Source of the DNA: Clostridia bacterium
GTDB taxonomy: Bacteria > Bacillota > Clostridia > Christensenellales > Aristaeellaceae
Length of the DNA: 36,500 nucleotides
NCBI GenBank assembly: GCA_017434775.1
Contig: JAFSGG010000124.1
Span: 1 to 36,500, forward strand
Direction of reading: 5' to 3'
The translations under genes and the position numbers were made by a program. Each line of letters starts with the position of its first letter. Position 1 is the stretch's first letter. The notes under the pieces were generated by a model. That model worked only from the letters and a program-made list of their open reading frames with translations, did no database searches and was not told where the DNA came from. Positions 1,056-25,932 of the stretch are shown here, piece by piece.

Positions 1056-1090
1056 ACAATGAGAAAATCAGGGAAATTCTTGCAAAGCGT

Positions 1091-1120
1091 GTAAACAAAA
1101 AGCCTTTTATCTGCGTTATA
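1091..1120 (+). promoter_or_regulatory. Putative ECF sigma-factor promoter (GTAAAC-N17-CGTTATA)
   Basis: GTAAAC at 1091-1096 is followed after exactly 17 bases by CGTTATATA at 1114. ECF promoters typically have an AAC-containing -35 and a CGT -10. The same AAC-N17-CGT layout occurs upstream of the ECF sigma gene at 5060-5086. In both cases the start codon lies about 40 bases past the CGT motif. Assignment to that sigma factor is inference. Confidence 0.6.
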
Positions 1121-1158
1121 TATACGAACAGGAAAAAATAGATGGAGAGGTAACGCAG

Positions 1159-2232
1159 ATGAAACGATTTTTGTGCTTTCTTGTCAGTTTGTGTTTTCTT
1201 TTTACAGGAGCAATGGCGGAATGCGGAACAAAAGAAGAAGCTATATCGATATTGCAGTGCAACAGGCCGTACATGCATACGGTGTCTGATAAAACCATGG
1301 AGGCATGGGAAACGGGTAATGCGGATGCGGTATCCTTTATGGACGTGACGGGGGAAGAACGGAAGAGCGGGATCAACAAATGGTCTGCGGCGGTACAGAT
1401 GTTTCAAAAATTGTATTTCCCGGATGATCCATTTTTCAGTGAAACCCTGGAAGGACGTTGTATACGCGATGCGTTTATGGCAGAAGGAAAGCTGATTCCG
1501 CATAGCTATCACGTAATGCCCGGGCCGGATGAAATAGCACATGACGAAGCATGGAACCTGGCATTGGATGCGATGAAGACGAAATACAACCTGAATTTTG
1601 CCGGATTGATGCGGAATATGAAGGTGGATACCCACTATTTTACGCCCACCGGAGAATTGAAGGATGCCTTCTGGCTGTTTCAGGTAAAGCTTGAAAACGG
1701 TGACAAATATGCCGTTCAGGTACGGAATGGCGAAGTGGCGGCATGTCAGCGGCTGGAGCAGGAAGAAAAACTGTTTTCGATGTATGATGAGCTGTGCAGT
1801 GAAAAAGGCGCGTTCTTTCAATGGTCTTTGGAAGATAAGGCTGCGTTTGCTGAACAGCTGCCGGATTTGATCATGAAGGCTTATATCGAAGGGCAGGATT
1901 TGGGCCGATGCGGAGATTTATTGGCCATAGCAGGGCAGGGATTTTGCCTGCCGGATGCAACAGCTATCGAACAGCATCAGGCGTTGGAACATGCCGTGAT
2001 GGCAGCGGGCGAAAAATTCCATCTGCCGGACGGCTGGGCAAAAGAAGCGGAAATTGCTTTTTCCTGTTTCAAACAGGAGGACAAAACAATCTGGCGGGTG
2101 ATCTTCTGGAAGACCGGGAACCCGGAATTGCCGGGCGCGGTAGTGGATATGGATGCAGAAACCGGTGTGCCTTTCCGGGTGGAACGATATGACGGAACCC
2201 CAGAATCCATTCCCTATGTGGAAAGACTGTAA
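1159..2232 (+). CDS. Secreted PepSY-like protein, probable ECF regulon member
   Basis: The 357-residue product starts with a signal peptide (MKRF, hydrophobic core, cleavage likely after AMA at about residue 20). Two repeats of a PepSY-like layout follow: an Ala-rich helix, then a strand pair such as 'YAVQVRNGEV' (about 185-195) and 'AVVDMDAETG' (about 329-338). The C-terminal half resembles that of the secreted protein encoded at 2760-3551 ([LM]PD.T, an Ala-rich helix, W.V/I, then VDA.TG). PepSY-type domains are thought to inhibit proteases or sense the envelope; the role here is unknown. A GGAGAGG site at 1144-1150 precedes the ATG. Upstream lies an ECF-like promoter matching that of the nearby sigma operon, and a terminator follows. 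Confidence 0.72.
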   Translation: MKRFLCFLVSLCFLFTGAMAECGTKEEAISILQCNRPYMHTVSDKTMEAWETGNADAVSFMDVTGEERKSGINKWSAAVQMFQKLYFPDDPFFSETLEGRCIRDAFMAEGKLIPHSYHVMPGPDEIAHDEAWNLALDAMKTKYNLNFAGLMRNMKVDTHYFTPTGELKDAFWLFQVKLENGDKYAVQVRNGEVAACQRLEQEEKLFSMYDELCSEKGAFFQWSLEDKAAFAEQLPDLIMKAYIEGQDLGRCGDLLAIAGQGFCLPDATAIEQHQALEHAVMAAGEKFHLPDGWAKEAEIAFSCFKQEDKTIWRVIFWKTGNPELPGAVVDMDAETGVPFRVERYDGTPESIPYVERL

Positions 2233-2236
2233 TGAA

Positions 2237-2268
2237 AAAAGGATGTGCTGATTTCGGCACATCCTTTT
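2237..2268. terminator. Bidirectional terminator between convergent genes
   Basis: A 12-bp perfect stem (2237-2248 with 2257-2268) is flanked by A-rich and T-rich arms. It can therefore end both the plus-strand secreted-protein gene and the minus-strand deaminase gene. Confidence 0.88.
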
Positions 2269-2282
2269 ATCGTTTTCGTTAA

Positions 2283-2699
2283 TCAGCACACCACCGGCTG
2301 CCAGGCGAAGGGGAGCAGATCTCGTGCGGAAACTTTGATAAGGTTTCCGTTTTCGTCGTTGACAATGACCTTGATATCCGGGCAATACTCAAAGAGCATC
2401 TGCCGGCAGTTGCCGCAGGGCGGAATAACGCAATTCAGGTGCTTTTCATGAACGGCTACAATGGTATCAAATTCCCGTTCCCCAGCGGAAACGGCCATGC
2501 CCATGGTGATGTATTCGGCGCAGGAACCGTGGATGCCGTCGCAATTGACGCCGGTGTAAACTTTCCCGTTTTTGCACAACAGGGCGCAACCTACGGTATG
2601 GTTATACACGCCGTCATCAAAGTTTTTTTCCAGCACGTCCAGTCCCATCCGGATCAGTTGATGGTCTTTTTCGTTGAGGGGATAACGGATCATGGGCAT
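2283..2699 (-). CDS. Cytidine deaminase family protein (blasticidin S deaminase-like)
   Basis: This zinc-dependent deaminase of about 138 residues would convert cytidine or a cytosine-containing compound to the uridine form. The zinc site is complete: Cys60-Ala-Glu62 (C-A-E, with Glu as the proton shuttle) and Cys95/Cys98 in PCGNCRQ. The sequence around CAE, the SPCG/PPCG loop and the C-terminal 'RDLLP' resemble blasticidin S deaminases more than classical cytidine deaminases (family knowledge), so the substrate is uncertain. The frame stays open back to a TTG at 2717, but that sits at the transcription start predicted from the promoter at 2727-2755. ATG at 2699, or 2693 with AGGG ahead of it, is therefore preferred. 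The gene has its own promoter downstream of the sigma operon. Confidence 0.8.
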   Translation of the reverse strand: MPMIRYPLNEKDHQLIRMGLDVLEKNFDDGVYNHTVGCALLCKNGKVYTGVNCDGIHGSCAEYITMGMAVSAGEREFDTIVAVHEKHLNCVIPPCGNCRQMLFEYCPDIKVIVNDENGNLIKVSARDLLPFAWQPVVC

Positions 2700-2726
2700 C
2701 CCTGCTTTCTCAATCAATGTGCATTC

Positions 2727-2755
2727 ATTGTATCACAGGCGGGAAGGGATGGCAA
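2727..2755 (-). promoter_or_regulatory. Sigma-A promoter of the deaminase gene
   Basis: Read on the minus strand, TTGCCA (2755-2750), a 17-bp spacer and TACAAT (2732-2727) lie in the short gap after the preceding gene. It separates deaminase expression from the ECF operon and argues against the TTG start at 2717. Confidence 0.75.
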
Positions 2756-2759
2756 GGGA

Positions 2760-3551
2760 TCAGCCATTGCCGGGATCTTCGCCGATTTGGTAATAACCAT
2801 AGGGATCCACATGCATCCATTGACATTCCCCGGTGTGGGCATCCACGGCCACCAGCCATTCACGCAAAAAGGTGCGTTCATTTTTGCAGATGGTGATGCA
2901 CCAGTAAGGGTTTTCCGGGTCATCCACCCAGAACTGCTGCAGGGTGCGGCGAAGCTGGATATCTTCTATGCTAATGGCACCGGAAGATACAACAAAGTGT
3001 TGAGCCGCTTCGATGGCTTTTTCCATGGGCAAGCATGTTTCATCCGGCATGCCATTTACATGGCTGAGAATGAGAAGGATCTCTGTTTCATGGGCCACAT
3101 CCGCATAATCTGTAATGGAGGCACGCATCCAGGCATCAAATTCTGCTTTGTATTCGATGGGCCAGCAGCGAAAAGGCCCCATGTTTACTTGGTTTTCCCA
3201 GTGCCAGAGAATATACTTCCAATTATCCGGATCATAGTATTGGAAGTGAATATCTTCCGGCCGGATATCGTCATGATACACGTTGTAGATCACCTGAAAC
3301 AGATGGAAATCATCGCTTTTTCGGTAGAGATCAGCAGTCCAGCACCCATAGTCCTGATCATATTCCGGAAAGGGAGGATTATAATTCAGGTATTTCATTT
3401 CCAATTCCACATCGGCATATTCCGGATATTCCTGCAGCAATTTGCGGATCATGGCTTCGGCAACCCTGTCTTCTGTGATGGTTTCGGCAATGGACGGAAG
3501 GGCACCAAAGGCAAGCAGCAGGGCAATCAAGAAGCAAAGTGTTTTGTTCAT
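2760..3551 (-). CDS. Secreted PepSY-like protein, third gene of the sigma/anti-sigma operon
   Basis: This 263-residue protein has a signal peptide (MNKTLCFLIALLLAF, cleavage likely after SIAE at about 22). A mixed alpha/beta region follows, with a C-terminal PepSY-like unit: an Ala-rich helix (about 182-196), 'YWCITICKNE', then 'LVAVDAHTGE' near 240-249. The layout matches the C-terminal half of the protein at 1159-2232. It is translationally coupled to the anti-sigma gene: its ATG overlaps the upstream stop as ATGA (4-nt overlap). Encoded third after sigma and anti-sigma, it could modulate the anti-sigma protein outside the membrane. That role is inference from gene order. Confidence 0.72.
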   Translation of the reverse strand: MNKTLCFLIALLLAFGALPSIAETITEDRVAEAMIRKLLQEYPEYADVELEMKYLNYNPPFPEYDQDYGCWTADLYRKSDDFHLFQVIYNVYHDDIRPEDIHFQYYDPDNWKYILWHWENQVNMGPFRCWPIEYKAEFDAWMRASITDYADVAHETEILLILSHVNGMPDETCLPMEKAIEAAQHFVVSSGAISIEDIQLRRTLQQFWVDDPENPYWCITICKNERTFLREWLVAVDAHTGECQWMHVDPYGYYQIGEDPGNG

Positions 3552-4540
3552 TTTTCGTCTCCTTTCGTGATGACAAAATCCGAAGGGGTCAGGGTCTGCC
3601 CAAATAGCAGCTCATCCCGGCTGCGGTTCCACACTTCCACGCGGATCTCTTCCGGTACCCCTTCATCATAGGGCCAGTAGCGGAACAGGCGGCTTCCGTC
3701 TTTTTGCATCAGATGCAGGGTGGGCTGTTTCAAGGCCATTTCCAGGGGCATGTTTTCCAGAACAAAATCGTATTTCACATAGGTGCGGAAAGCAGTTCTG
3801 TGCAGGGACAGGGCGGTGAGGGTATAGCCGGTATTTCCCAGTACGATGGGTTCCGGAATGGAATAGTCTTCGATGGTGGGCAACCGGTCGATGGAGAACG
3901 GAACGGTTTTCCGTGTGGTTTTGCCGTCCATCAGCACATCTGCTACCAGTGTTATTGGATCGGGTGAGTGGTTTGCTTCCATGGAACCGTTGCAGAGAAA
4001 ATAGAGCGTGTTGTTTTCTGTATCTTCCGTGATGTCGGATAGCTCCGCTTCCCCGCCGCAGCGTACAGTGGCATGGACAAACACGATGGGCAGGTTGCGA
4101 GGGTTGGCGATCCCTTCGGCACTTGCTTCCCAGTCTTGCCCGGAGTAGGGAACCAGCAGCACATCCCCCTTTCCTTCGGCTCGGATATTGGCAAAGTACA
4201 TCCGGTCATCCGCCATGGCTTCCACACAGGTGAAGGTGATGCCTTCCACCTGAACGGTTGCCAGTGTGCCTTTGGTGGTTTGAATCTGCCCCACGGCATC
4301 GGAGAAAATCCAGCTGGAGAGCCATGCCTGTATAGACGGAATGAAGGTGGCTGCCAATGCTCCCATGCTCAAAAGCAGCAGCAGGATCAAAGCCAGCACC
4401 AGCATGGGCTTTCTGACGGGGAAAGACCGCTTTTCTTCCTGCAGCAAGGATTGCATTTTTGCTTCAATCTTCTGGTCAAACGTGGAGGAAGGAGTGGGCC
4501 GCTGTTCAAAAATCATGGAAGCGATCTGATGTTCAGTCAT
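3548..4540 (-). CDS. Membrane anti-sigma factor-like protein
   Basis: This 330-residue single-pass membrane protein has a cytoplasmic N-terminus of about 45 residues, one transmembrane segment (about 46-64) and a large extracellular part. The extracellular part is beta-rich and resembles the DUF4179-type proteins often encoded beside Clostridia ECF sigma factors. The N-terminal segment would bind and hold the sigma factor encoded just upstream. The two genes overlap by 8 nt (sigma stop TGA at 4533-4535, this ATG at 4538-4540), a classic sign of a coupled pair. No HxxxCxxC zinc anti-sigma motif is visible, so this is not a ZAS-type protein. The role rests on topology and gene order. Confidence 0.78.
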   Translation of the reverse strand: MTEHQIASMIFEQRPTPSSTFDQKIEAKMQSLLQEEKRSFPVRKPMLVLALILLLLLSMGALAATFIPSIQAWLSSWIFSDAVGQIQTTKGTLATVQVEGITFTCVEAMADDRMYFANIRAEGKGDVLLVPYSGQDWEASAEGIANPRNLPIVFVHATVRCGGEAELSDITEDTENNTLYFLCNGSMEANHSPDPITLVADVLMDGKTTRKTVPFSIDRLPTIEDYSIPEPIVLGNTGYTLTALSLHRTAFRTYVKYDFVLENMPLEMALKQPTLHLMQKDGSRLFRYWPYDEGVPEEIRVEVWNRSRDELLFGQTLTPSDFVITKGDEK

Positions 4541-5018
4541 GACCTTTTTCCTCCTTTTCCATTTGATTGCGCAGGATGTTCAAGCCTCTGGCAATGCGGC
4601 TGGATACTGTTCCTGCGGGCAGATGCAAAATCTTTGCGATTTCCGTGTTGGGCAGGTTTTCGGAATATCGCAGCATCAGCGGGATGCGGTATGTATCATC
4701 CAATGCAGACAGATACATCCATACCGGTGTTTCTGTTTTCGGGGGCTGCATAAAAATTTCCAGATTGTCTGTAACGGTTTCCCGCTTTCGCTTTCGAAGC
4801 ATATCCCGGCAGGTGTTCATCACACACCGGGTCAGGTAAGCGGAAAGGGCATCTTCCTGCAGGATGCGCCCCATTTTTCGCCAGCAGTTTTCCATTCCCT
4901 GGGCTACTGCATCTTCTGCATCAGGTGCATTGCGCAGCATCATCAGGGCCAGGCGGTACAGTCCCTGCTGCCGCCGGGAAACAACGGCAGTGAACCGGGC
5001 TTTTCTTTCGTCCGTCAA
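4533..5018 (-). CDS. ECF-type RNA polymerase sigma factor
   Basis: The 161-residue length is typical for ECF sigma factors. Region 2 spans about 14-78, with the core-binding and -10 helices (LMMLRNAPDAEDAVAQ). Region 4 spans about 100-152, with a helix-turn-helix (SENLPNTEIAKIL, PAGTVSSRIARGL) that recognises the -35 element. The start is TTG at 5018 with GGGAGG six bases upstream; no better ATG exists. It is the first gene of an operon with an anti-sigma protein and a secreted PepSY-like protein. The promoter ahead of it is itself ECF-like, so it probably drives its own transcription. The inducing signal is unknown. Confidence 0.9.
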   Translation of the reverse strand: MTDERKARFTAVVSRRQQGLYRLALMMLRNAPDAEDAVAQGMENCWRKMGRILQEDALSAYLTRCVMNTCRDMLRKRKRETVTDNLEIFMQPPKTETPVWMYLSALDDTYRIPLMLRYSENLPNTEIAKILHLPAGTVSSRIARGLNILRNQMEKEEKGHD

Positions 5019-5059
5019 AATGCTCCTCCCTTTCCAGATGATGTAAACTCATCTATATA

Positions 5060-5086
5060 GACGAATGGGAACAAAAAAGCGTTGCA
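5060..5086 (-). promoter_or_regulatory. Putative autoregulated ECF promoter (TGCAAC-N17-CGTC)
   Basis: On the minus strand TGCAAC (5086-5081), then a T-rich 17-base spacer, then CGTCTATA (from 5063) form an ECF-type promoter ahead of the sigma gene. A matching element lies at 1091-1120. The TTG start is about 42 bases downstream of CGTC. Confidence 0.65.
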
Positions 5087-5117
5087 TCGAAGGAAAATTT
5101 TGTTGAAAAAGAGAAAT

Positions 5118-10161: not shown

Positions 10162-10887
10162 TTATTTCTGAATTTCCACAATATCATCCCGCAGGCGGTA
10201 AAGGGTGGCGCCGTACTTTTTACGGCAGAAGGCATCCACGAACCAGTCGATATCCTTTTCCGCATCAAACTGCACGTAGCCATAACGGATGCCGTCGCTT
10301 TTGCGGGTGCCCTTCATGTTACTGTCCGCCCAGCGGATGGTATCGGTTTCGGGGTTGTAATCCCCGGTGATCATCATGCTGTGGGCGCCTACGCCATGAA
10401 CATAATTGGCGGCCATCTGGAAATAATCCCCCCGCTGGCACTGCATCATAAATTCCCGGGCCAGCTTCTGGTTTTCTTTTTTGGTGAGGGTATTATCGTA
10501 GCGGAAAGTAGCGGCTACATAGAAGGGATTTCCTTCTTCGGCGGGCACATCCATCCATTCCACGCCGTACACATAATCCTTGCATTCGGCTTTGGGCAGG
10601 TTGGCCGGGATCTGCAGTTCCTGCTCCGGGAATTCAGCCATGCGGTATTTGGAAGCGGCGGTTTCAAAGCAGTGCACGGTGAAATTCTTGCACACGTAGA
10701 TATCGCCGCTGTAATACGCCCGCTGGGGCCGCCCCTTGGCTTTGTCAAAGAGGGCTTTGGCTTCTGAAAGAATATCTTCGATCATCTGTTCCCGGGGGGT
10801 GAGGGGTTCTTCCTCAGCCAACACCAGGGGACAAACAGACAGCAGAATCAAAAACAGGCAAACCATGCGGCGGAACAGAATCTTCAT
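10162..10887 (-). CDS. Secreted papain-fold (NlpC/CHAP-like) hydrolase candidate
   Basis: The protein has about 241 residues and a signal peptide (hydrophobic 8-24, cleavage near VLAE). A Cys, His, Asp order suits a papain-like amidase or peptidase: Cys66 in 'YVCKNF', His169 in 'GVGAHSMM' and Asp188 in 'WADSNM'. Similar spacing occurs in secreted NlpC/P60, CHAP and amidase families that cut peptidoglycan or peptides. No family was matched with certainty. ATG 10893 has GGAGG only two bases away, whereas ATG 10887 has it at eight bases, so the latter is preferred. A TTGACT-N17-TATGCT promoter lies upstream. A probable function is wall remodelling, by inference. Confidence 0.65.
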   Translation of the reverse strand: MKILFRRMVCLFLILLSVCPLVLAEEEPLTPREQMIEDILSEAKALFDKAKGRPQRAYYSGDIYVCKNFTVHCFETAASKYRMAEFPEQELQIPANLPKAECKDYVYGVEWMDVPAEEGNPFYVAATFRYDNTLTKKENQKLAREFMMQCQRGDYFQMAANYVHGVGAHSMMITGDYNPETDTIRWADSNMKGTRKSDGIRYGYVQFDAEKDIDWFVDAFCRKKYGATLYRLRDDIVEIQK

Positions 10888-10921
10888 GGCCATTTCCTCC
10901 AGGTAAAGAATTTATAAAAAA

Positions 10922-25897: not shown

Positions 25898-25932
25898 AAT
25901 TCGGGAAAAGCCTTGCATTTGTCCGCTTCCCC

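Follow-up and report, generated by a model that had tools for sequence, protein, structure and literature searches.

The locus studied here raises two questions: whether its ECF sigma factor transcribes only its own operon or also an isolated gene 2.3 kb away, and what the secreted proteins encoded by the two units do. The window denotes the whole stretch of 36,500 nucleotides that was analyzed; it corresponds to contig C123 of a draft genome of 2.26 Mb that is 77% complete and comes from an uncultured bacterium of a Clostridia lineage.

Gene content of the locus

The original prediction had placed four open reading frames here, and all four were recovered at their coordinates and strands. The features discussed below are the following:

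4533..5018, minus strand: ECF sigma factor gene (161 aa, TTG start; Pfam Sigma70_r2 and Sigma70_r4_2 above cut-off)
3548..4540, minus strand: predicted membrane anti-sigma factor gene (330 aa; single TM segment at aa 46-64; no PepSY recognised in the ectodomain by the tests applied)
2760..3551, minus strand: third operon gene, secreted protein (263 aa; C-terminal part homologous to PepSY ectodomains of other predicted anti-sigma factors)
1159..2232, plus strand: isolated gene for a secreted protein (357 aa; in the predicted model, two regions, at about aa 128-198 and about aa 272-344, look PepSY-like)
5049..5087, minus strand: predicted autoregulatory ECF promoter of the operon (AAC at 5083-5081, CGT at 5063-5061, extended -10 CGTCTATATAGATGA)
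1094..1116, plus strand: AAC-N17-CGT look-alike before the isolated gene (AAC at 1094-1096, CGT at 1114-1116), unsupported as a promoter of this sigma factor

Within the operon, the sigma and anti-sigma genes overlap by 8 bases, the anti-sigma and third genes by 4 bases. Downstream and in the same direction follows a cytidine deaminase-like gene (window 2283-2760), at a gap of about 42 bases.

Among the products of the operon and the isolated gene, the sigma factor is the only one to exceed a Pfam cut-off (Sigma70_r2, 44.2 bits; Sigma70_r4_2, 39.6 bits), and its composition of regions 2 and 4 only places it among the ECF sigma factors. The second protein is assigned as an anti-sigma factor by position: its gene lies directly behind the sigma gene, and its single TM segment follows a short cytosolic part. 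N-terminal relatives in G031, G039 and G002 are likewise encoded directly behind adjoining sigma genes; a match in G049, whose stretch shows no sigma gene, was taken as chance, as were weak matches to dihydrofolate reductase. Zinc anti-sigma factors are marked by the motif HxxxCxxC. The window protein does not match this motif and has no Cys in its first 45 aa; it is thus not of the zinc type, and other types remain. DUF4179 matches it under the cut-off of 30.1 bits (15.1 bits, E 0.031), short of membership, and 3 of 10 members of its family reach E <= 0.1, the best at 0.031. An ALA triplet (aa 61-63) stands right after the TM segment. Searches for PepSY families gave no match beyond this segment, and no named relatives of the protein were found.

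A predicted promoter for the sigma factor's own operon

For promoter prediction, a two-box matrix was built from the upstream regions of 75 sigma genes of the own genome and its relatives, excluding the window sigma gene. The matrix was seeded with seven AAC-N17-CGT sites and then refined; 38 sites with scores of 12.3-31.2 were kept. Its consensus reads about RTSGAAAAAA, about 12 bases, then TTCGTCTATATARGTGA. The operon site scores 22.6, which is the top of the 36.5 kb window on both strands and is reached by 0 of 1000 shuffles. It is the one position in the window that scores at least 20, as compared with none in 30 shuffled windows. Autoregulation of the sigma factor, as put forward by the original prediction, is therefore well supported by sequence, with the window sigma gene left out of training: the protein is predicted to be an ECF sigma factor with an AAC/CGT promoter of its own.

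Matrix scores of 12-15 alone prove little, because sites of at least 12 arise 0.57 times per shuffled window. The second-best site of the window (15.4 at 25927, minus strand) looks like background, and none of the reading frames that follow it in this orientation is a convincing gene. A pattern search of the own genome with CGTCTWNNNNRNTGA returned 29 sites, whereas its backwards control returned 8. Scores above 12 are found for ten of the 29, and five of these ten, the window's included, precede open reading frames recognised by the sigma profile. The other five are the training site of another sigma gene (C1:8552), a site preceding a secreted protein just behind another sigma/anti-sigma pair (C11:5242), one at the end of a sigma gene (C124:15071), one at a contig end (C13:160), and one within an open reading frame (C60:30596). 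Apart from the window's, the scores of these own-genome sites are not independent, since they were open to matrix training. At 3053-7515 of contig C11 (L201) of the own genome, a pair of a sigma factor and a TM protein is followed by two secreted proteins, the first of which has an ECF-type site scoring 14.5. The matrix also supplies a promoter consensus for a large set of ECF sigma factors whose lineage is represented here by draft genomes.

The element before the isolated gene

The original prediction extended the circuit to the isolated gene on account of a common promoter layout. AAC-N17-CGT does stand upstream of both units at the expected places, and the spacing agrees as well: AAC begins 65 bases before the start codon and CGT-to-start is 42 bases for both genes. 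The longer consensus CGTNTATA, by contrast, is not common to the two sites (CGTCTATATA vs CGTTATATATA). A genome search run as AAC-N16/17-CGTNTATA gave 5 own-genome matches versus 13 for the backwards control and missed the isolated site; the differing sequences and the excess of the control over the real matches rule out this shared consensus.

Of 2000 dinucleotide shuffles made from the 150 bp before the isolated gene, 29 contain the literal AAC-N17-CGT, as do 3 of 61 sampled own-genome upstream regions, the isolated gene's among the three; the open reading frames behind these 61 regions were chosen by length, and some are not real genes. A literal copy also lies within 150 bp upstream of a secreted-looking open reading frame at window 10162-10893 (minus strand), where the matrix score is -6.0. 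The isolated gene's element scores 5.6 with the matrix made without the window sigma gene, versus 12.3-31.2 for the kept sites, and thus falls outside the promoter class of the sigma factor. Shuffles attain 5.6 in 110 of 1000 cases in one test and in 64 of 500 in another; 16 window positions score at least as high, versus a mean of 11.3 in 30 shuffled windows. It is also the top score among non-sigma upstreams in the sample of 61, so that a weak or variant site is possible. AAC/CGT is a generic ECF signature (PMC8103513), and 27 stretches of the own genome pass the Pfam cut-off for sigma region 4; this sigma factor would therefore not be singled out even by a true ECF site. By these comparisons the element appears indistinguishable from chance, which leaves the two-site circuit unsupported. 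A scan of the plus strand between 950 and 1200 revealed no sigma-70-like promoter.

The isolated gene in related genomes

Among the first 100 relatives searched, the isolated gene is full-length only in the own genome (G000) and G008, and the search of the whole family added five further genomes in which it is full or nearly full length. The sole close ortholog with DNA is that of G008 (61%), a genome of the same genus. Its upstream region contains no AAC-N17-CGT, so that the element is not conserved there, and the whole sigma operon is missing from the G008 stretch. A different weak site is present instead, scoring 8.4 (17 of 500 shuffles). Moreover, the 11-mer GTGTAAACAAA, which spans AAC on the -35 side, is common to window 1090-1100 and G008 L028 436-446; a shared 11-mer or longer appears in 10 of 1000 shuffle pairs, and the remaining upstream sequence differs between the two. 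The 11-mer and the weak site count against flatly dismissing some common upstream element. More distant orthologs score 4.5 in G190 (27 of 500 shuffles) and below 0 in G342, G336, G151, and RGIG2950.

In G008 the isolated gene lies behind an rRNA-like stretch, and cytidine deaminase and MarR genes adjoin with no sigma operon between; the same two genes are neighbours in G024 and G015, likewise without the operon. Consequently, the sigma operon was either gained here or lost there. The third protein has a full-length match only in the window's own genome out of 29 genus genomes, and partial matches in six others. A secreted-looking open reading frame of 244 aa (L028 1670-2404) follows the isolated gene in G008 and shows no clear similarity to the third protein or the anti-sigma factor of the window (best E 0.021). 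Near-identical loci of a PepSY gene, a sigma gene and an anti-sigma gene were found on two contigs labelled Bacteroidales bacterium RGIG2950 (L092 and L093; JAFRZX010000173.1 and JAFRZX010000015.1); carrying a locus typical of this Clostridia family, these contigs are likely wrongly binned.

Two accounts of the isolated gene have to be weighed. It may be an older gene for a secreted PepSY protein, transcribed from a different promoter, perhaps one of another of the genome's sigma factors, and lie near the operon by chance; the evidence leaves this account about evenly poised. A sigma gene is present in the fetched stretch for two of eight distinct full-length orthologs, the window's and that of RGIG2950, which lies 141 bases before a sigma gene. 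The gene occurs without the operon in G008, and cytidine deaminase and MarR are direct neighbours in G008, G024 and G015. Against it stands the lack of a sigma-70-like promoter in the searched upstream interval; furthermore, the stretch of G101 includes a single base upstream of the gene and further stretches are also of limited length, such that a more distant sigma gene would escape the count. The opposing account, in which 1094-1116 serves this sigma factor as a promoter for the isolated gene too and the secreted proteins are paired outputs feeding back on the system, we regard as improbable. It can draw on the exact 17-base spacing, the identical 42-base distance, the rarity of the literal element in shuffles, its top rank among non-sigma upstreams, and the 11-mer and weak site in G008. 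In addition, a longest contig of 25610 bases is recorded both for P0017, a homolog of the isolated protein, and for P0033, a homolog of the anti-sigma factor, so that these two may share a contig. What weighs against it is the low matrix score, which shuffled sequence and other window positions also attain, together with the ortholog of G008, which lacks both the element and the operon, and the poor scores of the distant orthologs.

PepSY-type modules in the secreted proteins and in predicted anti-sigma factors

That the two secreted proteins are homologous was borne out by BLASTP (E 2e-4 over 72 aa) and by profile-profile comparison (hhalign E 1.3e-4, but with a probability of only 53.5%). 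Their PepSY-like character, also part of the original prediction, emerges through a third, PepSY-bearing family, which both families match far more strongly than each other: against the outer parts of 42 membrane proteins, described below, the profile-profile E values are 1.7e-35 and 4.9e-14. Pfam PepSY (PF03413) gave no match in either the isolated or the third protein, and reached E <= 0.1 in 4 of 19 (best E 1.2e-4) and 1 of 7 (E 0.086) members of the two window families. Both proteins are homologous to proteins that match PF03413 (23 of the 42 at E <= 0.01); lacking a match over the cut-off, they are called PepSY-like here and are not filed as members of PF03413. The PepSY fold, of which YpeB and CD1622 are examples, is a helix that leads into an antiparallel sheet. 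The predicted model of the isolated protein appears to contain two PepSY-like domains; the model of the third protein is poor (pLDDT 59.1). Fold searches also returned rows for copper amine oxidase and cystatin. A PDB sequence search with the family of the isolated protein found nothing, the viral contigs searched held no match, and a weak match of the isolated protein to IP_trans was taken as chance.

Profiles built from the two window families served to gather proteins with such modules, which were counted on 73 stretches, comprising 58 fetched regions (40 with flanks and 18 earlier), four own-genome stretches, four around MarR, six named contigs, and the window. Open reading frames identical in the last 100 aa were counted once, those below 150 aa were dropped, and full-length orthologs of the isolated protein were left out. 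Of the 56 module proteins obtained, 42 have their gene where an ECF sigma gene ends, and in each of these 42 a TM segment begins within aa 25-115; position and this segment are the sole grounds for predicting an anti-sigma role. The figure for comparison is 9 of 293 other open reading frames of at least 250 aa at the same loci. The 14 non-adjacent module proteins include the third protein of the window and the two secreted proteins of G180. A control for hydrophobic artefacts changed the counts little: uncut profiles gave 43 sigma-adjacent and 14 non-adjacent proteins, cutting the signal peptide from the isolated family's profile gave 41 and 13, and cutting it from both gave 42 and 14, the counts used here. 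In 14 open reading frames the two window protein families match over the same stretch.

A profile of the 42 proteins matched in 23 of 396 genomes of the order, with at most three candidates scored per genome. All 23 belong to the window's family, of which 34 genomes were listed (11 without a match), and no match outside the family appears among the matches listed. The best reading is that PepSY-type modules provide the sensing material for an expanded set of ECF switches in this one family, where they make up the extracellular portion of the predicted anti-sigma factors. The own genome contains PepSY anti-sigma systems at C13, C77, and C112. The last (L234, 2490-4803) is interrupted by a stop, which reflects either decay or an assembly error. 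A search of the open-access literature found no paper on PepSY in ECF anti-sigma ectodomains, which is weak evidence of absence.

The closest parallel to the window operon lies on one strand of G180:C70, where a sigma gene is followed by genes for a 490-aa anti-sigma factor with PepSY modules, two secreted PepSY-module proteins of 331 and 323 aa, and another sigma factor with its partner. The 331-aa protein is over the Pfam PepSY cut-off. The window operon has the same plan, except that its own anti-sigma ectodomain has no PepSY match.

A possible role of the third protein

The window thus holds three overlapping genes behind a strong ECF-type site, and the third product is homologous to sigma-adjacent ectodomains in the family. 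We propose that the operon is transcribed by its own sigma factor and that the third protein is a detached sensor or gate for the predicted anti-sigma factor, a proposal to which we give about an even chance. The third protein is read as a detached sensing module rather than only as an output because G180:C70 shows the same plan with a fused PepSY module. Action at the anti-sigma factor gains plausibility from the fused domains of relatives. To go from fusion to function is an inference, and, as the window's own ectodomain has no PepSY match, the argument reaches the operon only through relatives. The anti-sigma factor would hold the sigma factor at the membrane. The third protein would meet its outer part, or the protease that cuts it, and thereby set the timing of its destruction, possibly by shielding or exposing a cleavage site near the TM segment, as RseB does for RseA. 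The ALA triplet behind the TM segment and the sub-threshold DUF4179 match make an RsiV-like cut possible. Freed sigma factor would then raise expression of the operon, the third gene included, which would close a feedback loop of either sign. PepSY modules fused to predicted anti-sigma factors at 42 loci and unfused in a like operon would tie PepSY to transcription control.

Alternatively, the sigma factor may simply produce the third protein as an envelope effector, e.g., a protease inhibitor or metal binder, that never acts on the anti-sigma factor. The position of the third gene in the sigma operon fits this, as does the secreted protein on C11 of the own genome, which lies behind a good ECF-type site beside a sigma/anti-sigma pair. 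The literature links PepSY domains to protease inhibition and metal binding (PMC12714742) and reports a raised PepSY-associated protein in the Neisseria sigma-E regulon (PMC3240639). Homologous modules built into 42 predicted anti-sigma factors of the family point to the input side instead, and we consider a pure output doubtful. A broader scheme, rather unlikely in our estimation, is an exchangeable sensor kit for the family's many ECF switches, in which PepSY modules would shift between fused ectodomains and free secreted proteins, the free ones would plug into one or several anti-sigma factors as subunits or act on them as decoys, and the isolated gene would encode a sensor shared across systems.

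Comparison with known systems

The closest known systems comprise those compared below, and also YpeB, YpmB and CD1622 (PDB 5boi, 2gu3 and 4exr). In SigV-RsiV of Bacillus subtilis and with DUF4179 anti-sigma factors, an ECF sigma factor is likewise paired with a single-pass anti-sigma factor, and RsiV is cut by signal peptidase near its TM segment upon ligand binding (PMC6066255). Further points of likeness are the ALA triplet and the weak DUF4179 match of the window protein; it differs in that this match stays under the cut-off, no lysozyme-type ectodomain was identified, and the operon encodes a secreted third protein. In the RpoE-RseA-RseB system, a separate extracytoplasmic protein, RseB, guards the anti-sigma factor RseA from site-1 cleavage (PMC8844934), which is the role proposed here for the third protein. 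The likeness to RseB lies in this proposed role; the protein here is of PepSY type and belongs to a Clostridia lineage. The third comparison is DbfQ-DbfRS of Vibrio cholerae, where a small secreted PepSY protein is encoded beside a membrane-bound envelope sensor and DbfQ sets this neighbour by binding; PMC12714742 further describes PepSY domains as common outside cells, with a role not settled, and PepSY genes near such sensor systems as widespread. In Vibrio, a histidine kinase acts as the sensor and its binding by DbfQ has been demonstrated, whereas the counterpart here is a predicted ECF anti-sigma factor, and the system of this family is set apart by two modules per protein and by fused versions in relatives.
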